A stretch of 64,000 bases of DNA from a virus. Every line of letters starts with the position of its first letter. Within the stretch, counting starts at the first letter, position 1. The notes beneath the pieces are model-generated. The model had not been told where the DNA came from, ran no database searches, and was given only the letters and a program-made list of their open reading frames with translations. The position numbers and the translations under genes are program-made. The stretch spans positions 99,544 through 163,543 of the IMG/VR virus record IMGVR_UViG_3300017917_002938; one strand, given 5' to 3'. This document shows positions 1,279 to 41,945 of this stretch, one piece after another.

Positions 1279-1350
1279 TTAACGATTTGCGATATACATC
1301 GTAATCTCAAACCCAAATCTCATATCCACTGCTTCTGGCTTAGTCCACAT
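1279..1350 (-). CDS. pqqA: PqqA-like pyrroloquinoline quinone precursor peptide (23 aa)
   Basis: A 23-codon gene preceded by AAAGGAG six bases before ATG. The peptide has the length and layout of PqqA of the Klebsiella/Pseudomonas type: Met-Trp at 1-2, Lys-Pro at 4-5, Asp9, Arg11, Gly-Phe-Glu at 13-15, Thr17, Tyr19 and a C-terminal Asn-Arg. In known PqqA a Glu and a Tyr three residues apart are cross-linked by the radical SAM enzyme PqqE with the chaperone PqqD, and become the PQQ skeleton; here Glu15 and Tyr19 are exactly so spaced. No pqqB-E gene is seen in the window, so host enzymes would have to process it. It is the last gene of the peroxiredoxin operon and is followed by a strong terminator. 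Such a short match could in principle be chance, but the number of matching positions plus the ribosome binding site make that unlikely. Confidence 0.85.
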
Positions 1351-33765: not shown

Positions 33766-34272
33766 TTACATTCCAAAGTAATGTTTGAGTTTAATTATAG
33801 TCTCTTCTGCTGTTCTATGCAAGCTTCCTGAACCTCCATTATCCTCAAAACGAAGTACAACATCATCGGTATCATCAATGATGAATGAGTCTTTAGTAGC
33901 GTAGGCAGACTTAAACCGTCTTCCAGGTACCGTAATAACTTGATATGGAATATCGTGCTTCTCGATCCATTTTAGCTTCTGATCAGTTACAGTGTTATGA
34001 AAGTCAAACCCCCCTGTAGAGGTTAGAATAGACTTTTGGACGTTGCCAGGAATTGTTCTGATAAACTCTAACAACTCTTCTGCTCCAGGGTACATTTCTA
34101 GTTTAGTAAACCCGTCATTATCAATAAACTTTGCCCAGCAATTGGAGTAGGTGGTGTGAGCACCAGCTTTCCTGGCATCTCTCACCTCTTTAGGAGACAT
34201 GCCAAACATATCGGTGAAGCCTTTTTCAAAATTGGAGAGAACTCCGTCCATGTCAATGTAGAGATATTTCAT
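33766..34272 (-). CDS. HAD-family 5'(3')-deoxyribonucleotidase-like protein
   Basis: A 168-residue HAD phosphatase with the nucleophile motif DMDGVLSNF near residues 7-15, a Ser/Thr motif LTSTGG near 87-92 and an acidic DDTDDV block near 139-144. Family members remove phosphate from deoxynucleotides. Shares one base with the next gene upstream and ends just before the amidotransferase. Confidence 0.82.
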   Translation of the reverse strand: MKYLYIDMDGVLSNFEKGFTDMFGMSPKEVRDARKAGAHTTYSNCWAKFIDNDGFTKLEMYPGAEELLEFIRTIPGNVQKSILTSTGGFDFHNTVTDQKLKWIEKHDIPYQVITVPGRRFKSAYATKDSFIIDDTDDVVLRFEDNGGSGSLHRTAEETIIKLKHYFGM

Positions 34273-35033
34273 TATGAGTACTTTGCAATAAGATTTACCC
34301 AGTCAATGTTAATAGAGTAAGGTATCGGGTCTTTAATACCTACCTTGGCGAAATTAGCGATACGTTCCGAACAAGAAGGACACTTTCCACAACTTCTTCC
34401 CTCTTCGTCTGGATCATAACATGTTAAAGTAAAATCAAATCTAACTCCACCCAATTCTTCAGCAATTTTAATCTCATGCTCTTTTGATAGATGACTGAAT
34501 GGTGCTAGTAGCTCTACTTTGTGAGTTCGATTCTGTGCTGCTACTGCATTCATACTATCGACAAACTTTTGAGATGTGTCCCAGTAACCATACTCATCAT
34601 GCACTTGAAGACCAGTGAACACATGAGACGCTTTATTTGCTTCTGCAAATGAAAATGCTAGTGAGTTAAGAATCATATTACGAAACGGTACGTAAGTCTT
34701 AGGCTGAGGATCTCCGAGAACCTCTTTGATAGTAGGCATTGCTACATTGGTTCCACCGATATTAGCGGATACTTCCTTTACTATATCGCCAAGGATGCTA
34801 AGATCTAGAATCTTATGCTTGACGCCTCCGAGGTAGTTACATGTCATTGCTGCCATCTGTAACTCTCGTTTCTGCTTCTGCCCGTAATTATACGACAACG
34901 CAAATACCCTACTCCTACCATACTTCTTAACAAGCAAGTAGGTCATTATAGTAGAGTCAAGACCTCCAGATAAAACCGATACAACGTTATGCTCAGTTTC
35001 CGGTAGGATTTGAAGTGCTTGTTCTAAGTTCAT
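34272..35033 (-). CDS. queC: QueC, 7-cyano-7-deazaguanine (preQ0) synthase
   Basis: A 253-residue enzyme with the PP-loop SGGLDST near residues 22-28 and a zinc site at the C-terminus (C-x(10)-C-x-x-C-x-x-C: TCYDPDEEGRSCGKCPSC). It turns 7-carboxy-7-deazaguanine into preQ0 using ATP and ammonia. folE, queD, queE and queF in the same region complete the preQ1 route. Confidence 0.95.
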   Translation of the reverse strand: MNLEQALQILPETEHNVVSVLSGGLDSTIMTYLLVKKYGRSRVFALSYNYGQKQKRELQMAAMTCNYLGGVKHKILDLSILGDIVKEVSANIGGTNVAMPTIKEVLGDPQPKTYVPFRNMILNSLAFSFAEANKASHVFTGLQVHDEYGYWDTSQKFVDSMNAVAAQNRTHKVELLAPFSHLSKEHEIKIAEELGGVRFDFTLTCYDPDEEGRSCGKCPSCSERIANFAKVGIKDPIPYSINIDWVNLIAKYS

Positions 35034-35247
35034 CTTTTAACCTTTCAACATATACTGCAGCATCTAGTAACTCTTCTTGTAAGTGCTGTAACCATCCCAT
35101 TAAATCAATATCAGTTCGTTCTGTAGTAGTTCCGTACTTTTTATATCCTGAAGACATTCGTTGCCAGAGCATTCTACGAACTGATTCAACATTCTTATCG
35201 ATAGGGATATCACTATACCCTTTTTCGTCTAGTTCAGAAGGATGCAT
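34993..35247 (-). CDS. MazG-like/NTP pyrophosphatase-type protein (84 aa)
   Basis: An 84-residue helical protein. The central MGWLQHLQEELLDAAVYVERL block contains the E-E-x-x-D metal-binding pattern of all-alpha NTP pyrophosphohydrolases (MazG/dUTPase type). It overlaps queC by 41 bases. It may clear nucleotide by-products. Confidence 0.7.
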   Translation of the reverse strand: MHPSELDEKGYSDIPIDKNVESVRRMLWQRMSSGYKKYGTTTERTDIDLMGWLQHLQEELLDAAVYVERLKDELRTSTSNPTGN

Positions 35248-36170
35248 TATTGTCTCGCAGTCTTGGTTGACACATTGAACACCCGGTACATAGGAGCTTT
35301 TCTCATTGCTAGCTCCATGCTAGTTGCCCGTACTGGATTAATATCGATACCGCCTCTTCTAGTATACAGACAAGCTACAAATAGTTCTTCAGGTTTAAGT
35401 AAGTCAAGCAAGCGCTTATAAATGCACTCACAAATCTCTTCGTGAAAATGATTTTCTTTACGCATGGAAACAATATACTTTAAAAGAGATTCAGGTGTAA
35501 CAGACTTCTCTCCCTTAATGTGAATGTATACATCGCCCCAGTCAGGTTGATTAGTTACTCGACAATTAGACCTTAAAGAGTTAGAGCGCCATGTTTCGTA
35601 TCGTCCTATGGATGGTACTACCTCAAGAATATCAGGACTCTCGTTATAGTCACTAAATACCATGTTGTTAACGTTACAGTAATTTTCAAGAGAAATAAAA
35701 TCTCCAACAATAGGTCTGGAGGTATCTACGTCTCCAATAGAGATTCCTACATCAACATTACCTCCTACTGCTGCACTTAAATCGTTAGAAATTCTTTCCT
35801 CAATATCCCATATGTCTTCATCTATATCAATGAGCTTAGCCATATTATAAGAGTTAAGATATAACTTAACTGACTTAGATTCTACGATGTTAGGGGTGTC
35901 TGAGGCATAAGTGAATTTTAACCAACCAGTAACAGGGAATCCATTCTTACGTAAGGTAGAAAACTCATAAGCATTCCATACATCAAACCCTTCGAAAGGA
36001 AGACTGTCTTCTTCGATGCCATATTGAGTTCGATTAAGTGAACGAGGTACTCCTACTAACAGAGTAGGATCAACATCGTCTGGGGTTACATACGGTTTAA
36101 CTACAGTTCCATCCCCCGCTTTACCTAGGTGAACCGATACCAGTTTATTAAGTTCTTCTTGATTACTCAT
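35247..36170 (-). CDS. queF: QueF, preQ0 reductase
   Basis: A 307-residue two-domain (E. coli-type) NADPH-dependent nitrile reductase. Seen are the substrate motif ESKSVKLYLNSYN near residues 94-106, the catalytic-Cys block SNCRVTNQPDWGD near 202-214 and NHFHEEICE near 242-250. It converts preQ0 to preQ1. Its presence means the base inserted in DNA is likely to be at the preQ1 level or beyond, not preQ0. Confidence 0.95.
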   Translation of the reverse strand: MSNQEELNKLVSVHLGKAGDGTVVKPYVTPDDVDPTLLVGVPRSLNRTQYGIEEDSLPFEGFDVWNAYEFSTLRKNGFPVTGWLKFTYASDTPNIVESKSVKLYLNSYNMAKLIDIDEDIWDIEERISNDLSAAVGGNVDVGISIGDVDTSRPIVGDFISLENYCNVNNMVFSDYNESPDILEVVPSIGRYETWRSNSLRSNCRVTNQPDWGDVYIHIKGEKSVTPESLLKYIVSMRKENHFHEEICECIYKRLLDLLKPEELFVACLYTRRGGIDINPVRATSMELAMRKAPMYRVFNVSTKTARQ

Positions 36171-39464: not shown

Positions 39465-40163
39465 TTATTTACAAGCATATTGTTGTTGTAGCATAATATT
39501 GTCAAAGAACTCTTTCTTAGCTGCACTATCGGTCTGAAACAATCCATGTAATACTGTCGTCTGCGTTAGTGAACTATGAGCCATAATTCCTCTATTCTCG
39601 CAACAACCATGCGTGGCTTGAACGTATACAGCTACGTCATCACTATCTGTTGCCTTCATGATTTCTCGCGCAATGTCGTTACAAAGTTCTTCTTGCAACG
39701 TTCCTCGTCTTGCGCACCATTGGGCGATCCGAGTATACTTTGATAAACCAATAAGTTTATTAGCTGCGATAATTCCGATATACGCCACACCAACAACAGG
39801 TTGGTGATGGTGAGAACACATACTACGAAGCTCAGAACGCACAACCAACATACCCTCATATCGATCTTCTGAATCATTTGGAAAAGCCGTTGCATCGGGG
39901 GCGTGTTCATATCTGCCTGCCATTATTTCGTTATAGTACATTTTAGCCAAACGACGAGCTGTACCTTTAGAGTTAGGATCATTTTCACGGTCAATTAATA
40001 AACGATCAAGAACCGTTTCAAATGCTTCAGTTGCTTCTTCAATTAGTTGTTCTTTCATTCTATCATCTAGAATATATTCACTAATATTATCACCAGCCCA
40101 GAAGCGCTTGCCGTCGCGCTTCATATTTTCTCTAATTACTTGACTTAGATTCTTTTCTGACAT
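39465..40163 (-). CDS. folE: FolE, GTP cyclohydrolase I
   Basis: A 232-residue enzyme with the zinc and catalytic residues in MCSHHHQPVVG (near residues 115-125) and VYVQATHGCCENRG (near 184-197). It makes dihydroneopterin triphosphate, first intermediate of preQ0. The ATG at 40163 lies just after the queD stop. Confidence 0.95.
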   Translation of the reverse strand: MSEKNLSQVIRENMKRDGKRFWAGDNISEYILDDRMKEQLIEEATEAFETVLDRLLIDRENDPNSKGTARRLAKMYYNEIMAGRYEHAPDATAFPNDSEDRYEGMLVVRSELRSMCSHHHQPVVGVAYIGIIAANKLIGLSKYTRIAQWCARRGTLQEELCNDIAREIMKATDSDDVAVYVQATHGCCENRGIMAHSSLTQTTVLHGLFQTDSAAKKEFFDNIMLQQQYACK

Positions 40164-40165
40164 TA

Positions 40166-40666
40166 TCACTCCGCAAATAAATCTTCATTCCACTCACGAT
40201 GACCTTCTCTATAAGCCATATTAGATTGTGTCTCTCTTACCTCTACTCTGAAGCACCATAGACGTTCGGCTTCCCCTGGACCCCAGAAGTCAGGAATATA
40301 AACACCGTTAACATACTTGTATAGTTGATCGGCTAGTCCCTCACATCCTAGTTTAGGTAAAATGGTTAACTTAGCCATTTTACGTCGCTCAAGCTCTTTA
40401 TACATCTCTAGTTCAGGATCATCTTGTGCAACTAGCAATGTATGATCAAATTGACTTTCCAGTACACCCTTAAGCTCTTTAAGACCACCGTAGTCTGCCA
40501 CCCAGTTACGAGCATCCAGTGTATCGGTACCAAAATAAAACTTCATACTGAAAGAGTATCCATGAATTAAATTACAATGAGAGTCGGCTCTCCATTGACG
40601 GTATGCGCATGGAAATGCATCATGATATTCTTTTGTGCTAACGTATTTGTAAGTAATAGGTGTCAT
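40166..40666 (-). CDS. queD: QueD-like 6-carboxytetrahydropterin synthase
   Basis: A 166-residue member of the 6-pyruvoyltetrahydropterin synthase family, phage type: FPCAYRQWRADSHCNLIHGYSF near residues 16-37 with Cys and His for zinc and catalysis, and FDHTLL near 87-92. The first His of the usual bacterial A-A-H-R motif is replaced by Tyr-Arg, as in other phage homologues I recall. Second step of the preQ0 route. Confidence 0.88.
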   Translation of the reverse strand: MTPITYKYVSTKEYHDAFPCAYRQWRADSHCNLIHGYSFSMKFYFGTDTLDARNWVADYGGLKELKGVLESQFDHTLLVAQDDPELEMYKELERRKMAKLTILPKLGCEGLADQLYKYVNGVYIPDFWGPGEAERLWCFRVEVRETQSNMAYREGHREWNEDLFAE

Positions 40667-41097
40667 ATTTTCTCCCACCAAAAGTCAATCCAATTAGGAA
40701 TGAAATTTCTGTCAATCCTCCACCCGTGATAGGTGGGCGTGATAAGTTGCTGATCGGAATTGTATATCAGTGTAGCGGTGTCCATCTTACCATACGCTTC
40801 CATAATTTCTACCATGGTCTGGCCAGAGTCAATAATATCATCCACCAGTAATGTATCAGCATCAAGCTCAGCTGAAGCATCAAACATAACTGGTCTATCT
40901 TTTGACCACTCTAAACAATAAAACGGTAGTTTGATATGGTGGCTGATAATTACTGCGGGTATAACTCCACCCCTTGCAATACCTACTACCTTATTATACT
41001 TTCTATCAGACTCTCTTATTTCTTTAATCATTTTCTGTAGGTGAGATCTCATTACTGTCTCACCATAGTACAGAGCATTGCTCTTTTCGTCTATCAT
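40663..41097 (-). CDS. Phosphoribosyltransferase (type I)
   Basis: A 144-residue PRTase with IARGGVIPAV near residues 40-49 and the PRPP motif LLVDDIIDSGQT near 83-94. This family includes xanthine-guanine and hypoxanthine PRTases. In the deazaguanine operon it may salvage bases or recycle guanine released by DpdA, which is inference. ATG at 41097 forms TAATG with the queE stop. Confidence 0.85.
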   Translation of the reverse strand: MIDEKSNALYYGETVMRSHLQKMIKEIRESDRKYNKVVGIARGGVIPAVIISHHIKLPFYCLEWSKDRPVMFDASAELDADTLLVDDIIDSGQTMVEIMEAYGKMDTATLIYNSDQQLITPTYHGWRIDRNFIPNWIDFWWEKI

Positions 41098-41945
41098 TAA
41101 GTTCCCCACTCATTTTTAAAGAGAGGTACTTGTAATCTGTCAGAGTAGCGGTAACCTCTCTTCATCGCTAACTCTGCTACACGTCTGTTATTCAGAACAT
41201 AAACGGATTCTACTCCTCCTACCGGCATTAAATAAACCGGACCTCTGAACCCTGCTTGTCTATATTCACTTACTGCTCTATCAGCCTCTTCAGCATCCTC
41301 TTCCGTAGCTACAACGAACTTAAGGTATGCATATCCGTACCATTCGTACATAGCCACAATATCGGGACAAATAGCATCTTCCCATTTTTCTCCTGATACG
41401 GATAGTTTAGGAGAGATAGAAAACGTAAGTTGGTCTCGTCTCTTTTTTGTCCAGTTATCGTTAAGATACTTTCTAAATTCGTTAGAAAGATCTTGCGTAC
41501 CGTTCGTTTCAAAGGTTAGTTCTTTAAGTTGAACCATCTTAGGGTGATTGAGCAGATCTGGATATGATCGCTGCCATCCTAGTAAAGGTTCACCTCCAGT
41601 AATTACCAGATGTTCGTCTTTCCATTCCTTGTACGGAAGGATATCCATAATTGAATCGGCCAGACCATCAGTAGATACCACAGGGCTAAGATGCTTAAAA
41701 CGAACATCCCAGCTAGCATAGCTGTCACAGCCCGTGCTAACCAAAGGAAGTGCTTTGTAGTCTGAATAATCTTGAGGGTTAATTTTGAGGTGCTCATCAC
41801 TTTTTTGTCCTTTAGGCATTCCAAAACCTGAGCAAGTGAAGTTACATCCGAATGTTCTTAAAAAGACGGATGGGACACCCATGTAGCGTCCTTCACCTTG
41901 AATGGAGTAGAATAACTCCGCGACTTTAATTTTCGACAATTTCAT
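41097..41945 (-). CDS. queE: QueE, 7-carboxy-7-deazaguanine synthase (radical SAM)
   Basis: A 282-residue radical SAM enzyme: ELFYSIQGEGRYMG start, then CNFTC near residues 34-38, while the third cluster Cys seems to be in STGCDSYASWD about 34 residues later. GGEPLLGW near 121 binds SAM. It makes the 7-deazaguanine ring. The unusual spacing (C-x3-C-x34-C) with an inserted loop seems to be a phage form. Confidence 0.92.
   Translation of the reverse strand: MKLSKIKVAELFYSIQGEGRYMGVPSVFLRTFGCNFTCSGFGMPKGQKSDEHLKINPQDYSDYKALPLVSTGCDSYASWDVRFKHLSPVVSTDGLADSIMDILPYKEWKDEHLVITGGEPLLGWQRSYPDLLNHPKMVQLKELTFETNGTQDLSNEFRKYLNDNWTKKRRDQLTFSISPKLSVSGEKWEDAICPDIVAMYEWYGYAYLKFVVATEEDAEEADRAVSEYRQAGFRGPVYLMPVGGVESVYVLNNRRVAELAMKRGYRYSDRLQVPLFKNEWGT

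Follow-up and report, generated by a model that had tools for sequence, protein, structure and literature searches.

A stand-alone pqqA gene with host-type control elements in a T4-like phage and its probable part in PQQ supply

Why should a phage carry a gene for PqqA, the precursor peptide of PQQ, and that gene alone? The locus that raises this question lies in the window, the 64,000-nucleotide stretch of DNA analysed here, which comprises bases 99,544–163,543 of a 163,543-base IMG/VR virus record. An earlier note, made from the letters of the window, had read one short open reading frame as a phage gene for the PqqA precursor, and had considered that its product might either supply host PQQ synthesis or compete within it.

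The pqqA gene and its phage

The gene (pqqA, 1279–1350, minus strand) runs from an ATG at 1350–1348 to a TAA stop codon at 1281–1279. The ribosome-binding site AAAGGAG proposed for it is confirmed at 1357–1363 on the same strand, six nucleotides 5' of the ATG. Profile searches bear out the identity of its 23-residue product, which scored 41.9 bits against Pfam PqqA (PF08042; E 9.3e-11, cut-off 21.1) and 41.2 bits against the NCBIfam equivalog TIGR02107 (cut-off 20), each about twice the cut-off. No second PqqA match turned up in the 163,543-base record and none in 14 control genomes, and the match in the window is far above chance. No PHROGs family matched the peptide. The residues picked out earlier are all in place (Trp2, Lys4-Pro5, Arg11, Gly13-Phe14, Glu15, Tyr19 and Arg23), with Glu15 and Tyr19 in the E-x3-Y spacing of the cross-linked pair. 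The description of this layout as Klebsiella/Pseudomonas-type holds for these residues, but the IANR that follows Tyr19 is the ending common in Burkholderiales PqqA and is not strictly that of Klebsiella.

The surrounding open reading frames are those of a T4-like myovirus (recombinase, polymerase, clamp loader, terminase, sheath, portal and capsid, as read from the sequence), and the capsid protein matches Gp23 with 491.9 bits. With T4-like genes around it, and with the same gene present in phage isolates, pqqA is a metabolic gene of host type that resides in a true phage genome, and a candidate auxiliary metabolic gene. The virus record also carries a permuted betaproteobacterial tmRNA with the tag ANDERFALAA (L131, 18754–19123) and 29 tRNA genes (L132, 2604–11299).

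Immediately upstream of pqqA are three overlapping genes on the minus strand that the earlier note had not described. The first encodes an AhpC-like peroxiredoxin (2372–2914; PF00578, 73.9 bits), the second, which overlaps both its neighbours, a GDSL-type hydrolase-like protein (1959–2372; PF13472, 32.0 bits with a cut-off of 32.9), and the third an AhpD-like peroxidase of the CMD family with the CxxC motif CHFC (1441–1962; PF02627, 43.2 bits). The last also scored 114.5 bits against TIGR00777, under the cut-off of that model. Relatives of AhpD were found in at least 595 instances in viral contigs and in none of 50,697 phage records. AhpC adjoins AhpD in 78 of 80 viral loci (L254–L333).

Control elements around pqqA

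Further elements beyond the earlier note lie between the AhpD-like gene and pqqA, and just past the latter, all on the minus strand. The operator-like motif ATTAATGATTTTCTGTAT (1421–1438), which is related to the palindrome CTCATGAAAATCATGAG of bacterial pqqA genes, has a weight-matrix score of 24.8, the highest in the whole record. It is followed by a sigma70-like promoter (1391–1420) that consists of GTGACT (1420–1415), an 18-nt spacer and TATATT (1396–1391); its consensus match is at chance level when taken alone, and two of the promoter features in the window are individually weak. Between this promoter-like element and the ribosome-binding site is the inverted repeat ACGTGTAC-CTTT-GTACACGT (1371–1390; leader fold z = -2.57), a candidate 5' mRNA hairpin or operator. 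Directly 3' of pqqA an intrinsic terminator, AAACGCCCCGTACGGGGCGTTT followed by a T run (1255–1276), was read in the window and recurs in viral copies. Phage morons are extra genes in a phage genome with a promoter and terminator of their own. The window gene has such a terminator of its own (1276–1255), and together with the promoter-like element it completes a self-contained pqqA cassette, which differs from phage morons in having a host-type operator and in recurring in lytic-type phages, not only in prophages.

In viral leaders the motif takes the form T-TAATGATTTTC-N2-TA(T/G) and lies mostly 60–120 nt 5' of the pqqA ATG. By weight matrix, 132 of the 214 distinct leaders contain it, as against 2.8 in shuffled controls, which preserve composition only roughly; because 67 of those leaders served to train the matrix, the count is partly circular, and no bacterial leaders were used in training. 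Its orientation is fixed (126 of the 132), and across 244 viral pqqA loci (2.04 Mb) 110 of the 114 strong sites fall within 200 nt upstream of pqqA. The same element stands before bacterial genes. There it is the palindrome CTCATGA-AAA-TCATGAG, and the 15-bp core with two mismatches at most occurs in 73 of 177 bacterial pqqA leaders and in none of 885 shuffled ones. A comparison of coordinates in 12 bacterial genomes places every one of the 17 exact 15-bp sites about 100–200 nt upstream of a pqqA gene. The viral form looks like a Fur box, yet with every exact bacterial site at pqqA this assignment was rejected. A recurrent one-mismatch site in the 1.3-Mb genomes discussed below, at the start of a gene named from its sequence as oligoribonuclease-like, was taken as unrelated.

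Viral operators keep the left half of the palindrome; of the right half they retain chiefly C9, T/G12 and A13. This right half is degraded in the window phage, so that binding at the operator may be weak or absent. The degraded half, the phage location and the lack of pqqB–E nearby set the window copy apart from bacterial PqqA (PF08042/TIGR02107), with which it shares length, the Glu-x3-Tyr pair, flanks, profile score and an operator-like site upstream.

The other parts of the cassette recur as well. A -10-like box about 35–42 nt past the motif has at least five of six matches in 67 of 101 viral leaders (26 in shuffles), inverted repeats of at least 6 bp lie between the promoter-like element and the Shine-Dalgarno (SD) site in 113 of 246 (34 in shuffles), and SD-like sites precede 250 of 252 viral pqqA genes. 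Terminator-like hairpins within 90 nt past the stop codon follow 108 of the 252, against 0.4% in shuffles. A T4-type late promoter NATAAATA 5' of viral pqqA was unconvincing, at 11.9% against 6.8% in shuffles. A structured-RNA leader was dropped in favour of operator, promoter and inverted repeat because the motif turned out to be palindromic in bacteria; the window contains no Rfam match. Many bacterial leaders (e.g. L494, L502 and L484) share TTCA-N-G-TTT-N2-CGATG 3' of the palindrome, which is perhaps a second site.

Viral copies of pqqA, their isolation and their conservation

A search of 50,697 phage records recovered pqqA from nine methylophage records, those of MEP401, MEP402, MEP301, Venkman, four Melnitz strains and P19250A. 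These are all of the Methylophilales/Methylophilaceae phage records that were found, and in none is the gene labelled. A tenth record with a PqqA peptide is that of an uncultured spring podovirus. The phages span several lineages, MEP401/402 belonging to the Zobellviridae and Melnitz, with Gp23, to the Kyanoviridae; the others are without Gp23. As had been anticipated, so short a gene is readily overlooked: it is hidden from annotation by its length of only 23 codons. Five of the phage records have no annotation at pqqA, in those of Melnitz-1 (L123, 2961–3056) and the spring podovirus (L127, 2067–2195) a 'hypothetical protein' that is probably a false gene is annotated antisense over it, and the other Melnitz records have a hypothetical protein at its position. 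Pattern scans of IMG/VR yielded at least 119 contigs with a PqqA ending in (I/V)(A/S)NR and at least 120 with one ending in MN(R/K), at least 239 viral contigs in total. One record assigned to a phage, Acinetobacter phage MD-2021a (L126, CAKLQF020000010.1), holds a chromosome-like stretch with ppk and pqqABCDE and was set aside.

Viral pqqA is an orphan. In tblastn searches with Acinetobacter PqqB–E, none of the 119 viral pqqA loci listed had pqqB–E, whereas 92 of 119 bacterial pqqA loci had pqqB. No PqqE exceeded the cut-off in 49 pqqA-positive viral records, against 540 bits for a bacterial control, and the window gene stands outside any pqq operon, with no PqqE match in the record and no pqqB–E at the locus. 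Location in a pqq operon is usual for PqqA and not defining, since orphan bacterial copies are known (PMC9851590). Only 1 of 49 pqqA-positive viral records encodes a PQQ dehydrogenase as well, and no PQQ alcohol dehydrogenase was found in the record of the window phage. The 72-kb viral contig of L366 (G035) encodes a full PQQ-dependent alcohol dehydrogenase (34049–35731, 608 bits), a combination like that of VP_266 described below.

The viral gene is under purifying selection. Sixteen distinct copies from searches that did not use the core pattern (phage isolates, AhpD loci and the window) gave pN 0.13 and pS 0.70, a ratio of 0.19. The frame and the Glu/Tyr pair, whose conservation in other phages had been put forward as a check, are indeed kept: Glu15 and Tyr19 occur in 252 of 252 viral copies, most of which were found with a search pattern that required the pair, and in all 17 found by other routes. 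The codons of the pair vary synonymously (GAA/GAG and TAT/TAC). Scans of viral contigs returned no cores without Glu (non-G-initial codons) and none without Tyr (non-T-initial codons), against at least 119 with both.

The peptides also resemble those of particular bacteria. The ending VMNK is shared by methylophages and by 1.3-Mb Burkholderiales genomes, all of which have a methanol-type dehydrogenase and two or three pqqA copies each, and the P19250A peptide is identical to the form in these genomes. As VMNK is common to methylophages and methanol-dehydrogenase genomes, phage peptides track their hosts. We infer that the window phage infects a betaproteobacterium, which may or may not be a methylotroph. 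A metagenome-assembled genome labelled Candidatus Methylopumilus (L224, JAIPCU010000181.1) was left out as a methylotroph reference, being a 3-Mb genome with no methanol dehydrogenase over the cut-off; its PqqA is like that of Burkholderiaceae and the Methylopumilus label is probably wrong.

A proposed supply of consumable precursor to host enzymes

After cross-linking the remainder of the PqqA peptide is discarded, so one PqqA is spent for each PQQ. This suggests a reason for the carriage of pqqA alone, as the consumable part of a system in which one peptide is destroyed per PQQ. The host PQQ enzymes are catalytic and could outlast a shut-off of host transcription, so that a phage imposing such a shut-off would need to replace only pqqA, because only PqqA is consumed. 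The cassette of the T4-like phage, from host-type operator and sigma70-like promoter through inverted repeat and ribosome-binding site to the 23-codon gene and its terminator, would be expressed to yield a normal substrate, Glu15 and Tyr19 of which would be cross-linked by host PqqD/PqqE, and the host protease, PqqB and PqqC would then complete PQQ. The gain to the phage would be that PQQ dehydrogenases are still charged and periplasmic electron flow is maintained during infection. We consider it likely, from the features above, that a moron-type cassette thus provides a betaproteobacterial host's enzymes with the PQQ precursor that they consume, and the cassette probably keeps PQQ-dependent energy metabolism going during infection. 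Cyanophage psbA is an auxiliary metabolic gene through which the phage likewise replaces the host component spent fastest; it differs in encoding a high-turnover protein, whereas PqqA is a precursor of 23 residues that the reaction destroys.

Published work is consistent with parts of this scheme. One paper cites the reaction in which PqqE with PqqD cross-links Glu and Tyr of PqqA, and a rise of PQQ in Gluconobacter on overexpression of pqqA alone (PMC7936290). Methylotrophic Burkholderiales have, and use, as many as five additional orphan pqqA copies (PMC9851590). Such copies (G293, G387 and G472) are stand-alone and have the same kind of operator as the viral gene, but are chromosomal, with a full-palindrome operator about 112–125 nt upstream.

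Other uses of the gene have to be weighed against supply. The possibility, raised in the earlier note, that the phage peptide is a decoy or competitor, occupying PqqD/PqqE or the protease so as to lower host PQQ and slow periplasmic oxidation, draws on the fact that the residues presumed to touch PqqD and PqqE are retained, so that an overproduced peptide might compete. A decoy needs neither Glu15 nor Tyr19, yet the scans produced no core lacking either, and every copy found by non-pattern routes keeps both; an intact substrate is turned over and does not block the enzyme, and a host-matched sequence behind a host-type pqqA operator fits supply. We therefore regard competition as very unlikely, and the viral data support a genuine substrate that would be under host-type control. 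It also seems unlikely that pqqA works with AhpC-AhpD and that its PQQ serves mainly against oxidative stress and not dehydrogenase charging. That reading accounts for the order in the window phage and in seven viral loci (L056, L275, L287, L289, L295, L305 and L312), where AhpC-(GDSL)-AhpD is followed by pqqA after a gap of about 94–122 nt. Set against this, of the 78 viral AhpD loci with enough sequence past AhpD only 6 have pqqA within 300 nt of it, AhpD or AhpC occurs in just 3 of the 119 loci from the first scan for pqqA (among the matches listed), the methylophage isolates carry pqqA without AhpD, and pqqA has a promoter-like element and operator of its own.

There is, lastly, the view that the gene does nothing for the phage: the contigs may be misassigned and their DNA the host's, or pqqA may be a unit that is selfish or neutral. 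Host DNA can occur in IMG/VR contigs, and a genome scan showed several scattered orphan pqqA copies in bacterial hosts. Contamination is rejected in view of the phage isolates, the absence of pqqB–E from the viral loci listed and the T4-like context in the window, and a neutral passenger, with synonymous sites almost saturated, the amino acids conserved and the operator and terminator retained, is extremely unlikely.

Returning to precursor supply, the recurrence of the cassette allows a broader and less certain proposal. On balance we favour the idea that a widespread autonomous cassette of unrelated Burkholderiales phages links up with a host regulon dedicated to PQQ by way of an operator specific to pqqA (host CTCATGAAAATCATGAG, viral TAATGATTTTC-N2-TA) bound by a putative regulator, and that phages would tune cofactor supply by the consumable substrate alone. 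If so, a single metagenomic report would become a general rule for phages of PQQ-using betaproteobacteria, and phages, including every methylophage record found, would supply a consumable cofactor precursor to host metabolism. The shared palindrome would offer a handle on a regulator through which Burkholderiales control PQQ synthesis, and on how methylotrophs turn over methanol when infected by viruses.

Viral pqqA itself is already published, contrary to the earlier statement that no phage case had been described. According to the accessible text of Coutinho et al. (2020), the Lake Baikal viral population VP_266 has a methanol dehydrogenase and PqqA, and the latter was proposed to support host PQQ enzymes (PMC7678222). 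VP_266 shares phage-encoded PqqA with the window record, which differs in lacking a PQQ alcohol dehydrogenase; that text describes no cassette, operator or presence in isolates (PMC7678222). Viral pqqA, together with pqqE and pqqD, is also listed in a reservoir study of 2026 (PMC13188868). In publications on the OM43 phages Melnitz, MEP301, Venkman and MEP401/402 the main text, so far as accessible, mentions no PQQ gene; that on Melnitz names PQQ only as a medium vitamin. The extent and wiring of viral pqqA, including its control region, appear to be new.

Some further observations concern the neighbourhood of the gene. Just 3' of pqqA there is a possible H-type pseudoknot in L064, L074, L078, L087, L106, L044 and L079, with stems that change but stay paired (e.g. 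ATCGG-TTGGTAG-A-TCCGAT-TAAAA-CTACC); in some loci it follows a TATAAATA-like late promoter and precedes differing genes. It was above threshold in 18 of 252 regions downstream of pqqA against 3 in shuffles, with no convincing case in the window. A permuted tmRNA lies within about 1.5 kb of pqqA in 9 of the 16 loci searched with Rfam (L008, L043, L061, L078, L082, L087, L090, L098 and L117). Elsewhere in the window, QueC-, FolE-, QueD- and QueE-like genes read from the sequence (34272–35033, 39465–40681 and 41097–41945) suggest 7-deazaguanine synthesis or DNA modification by the phage.
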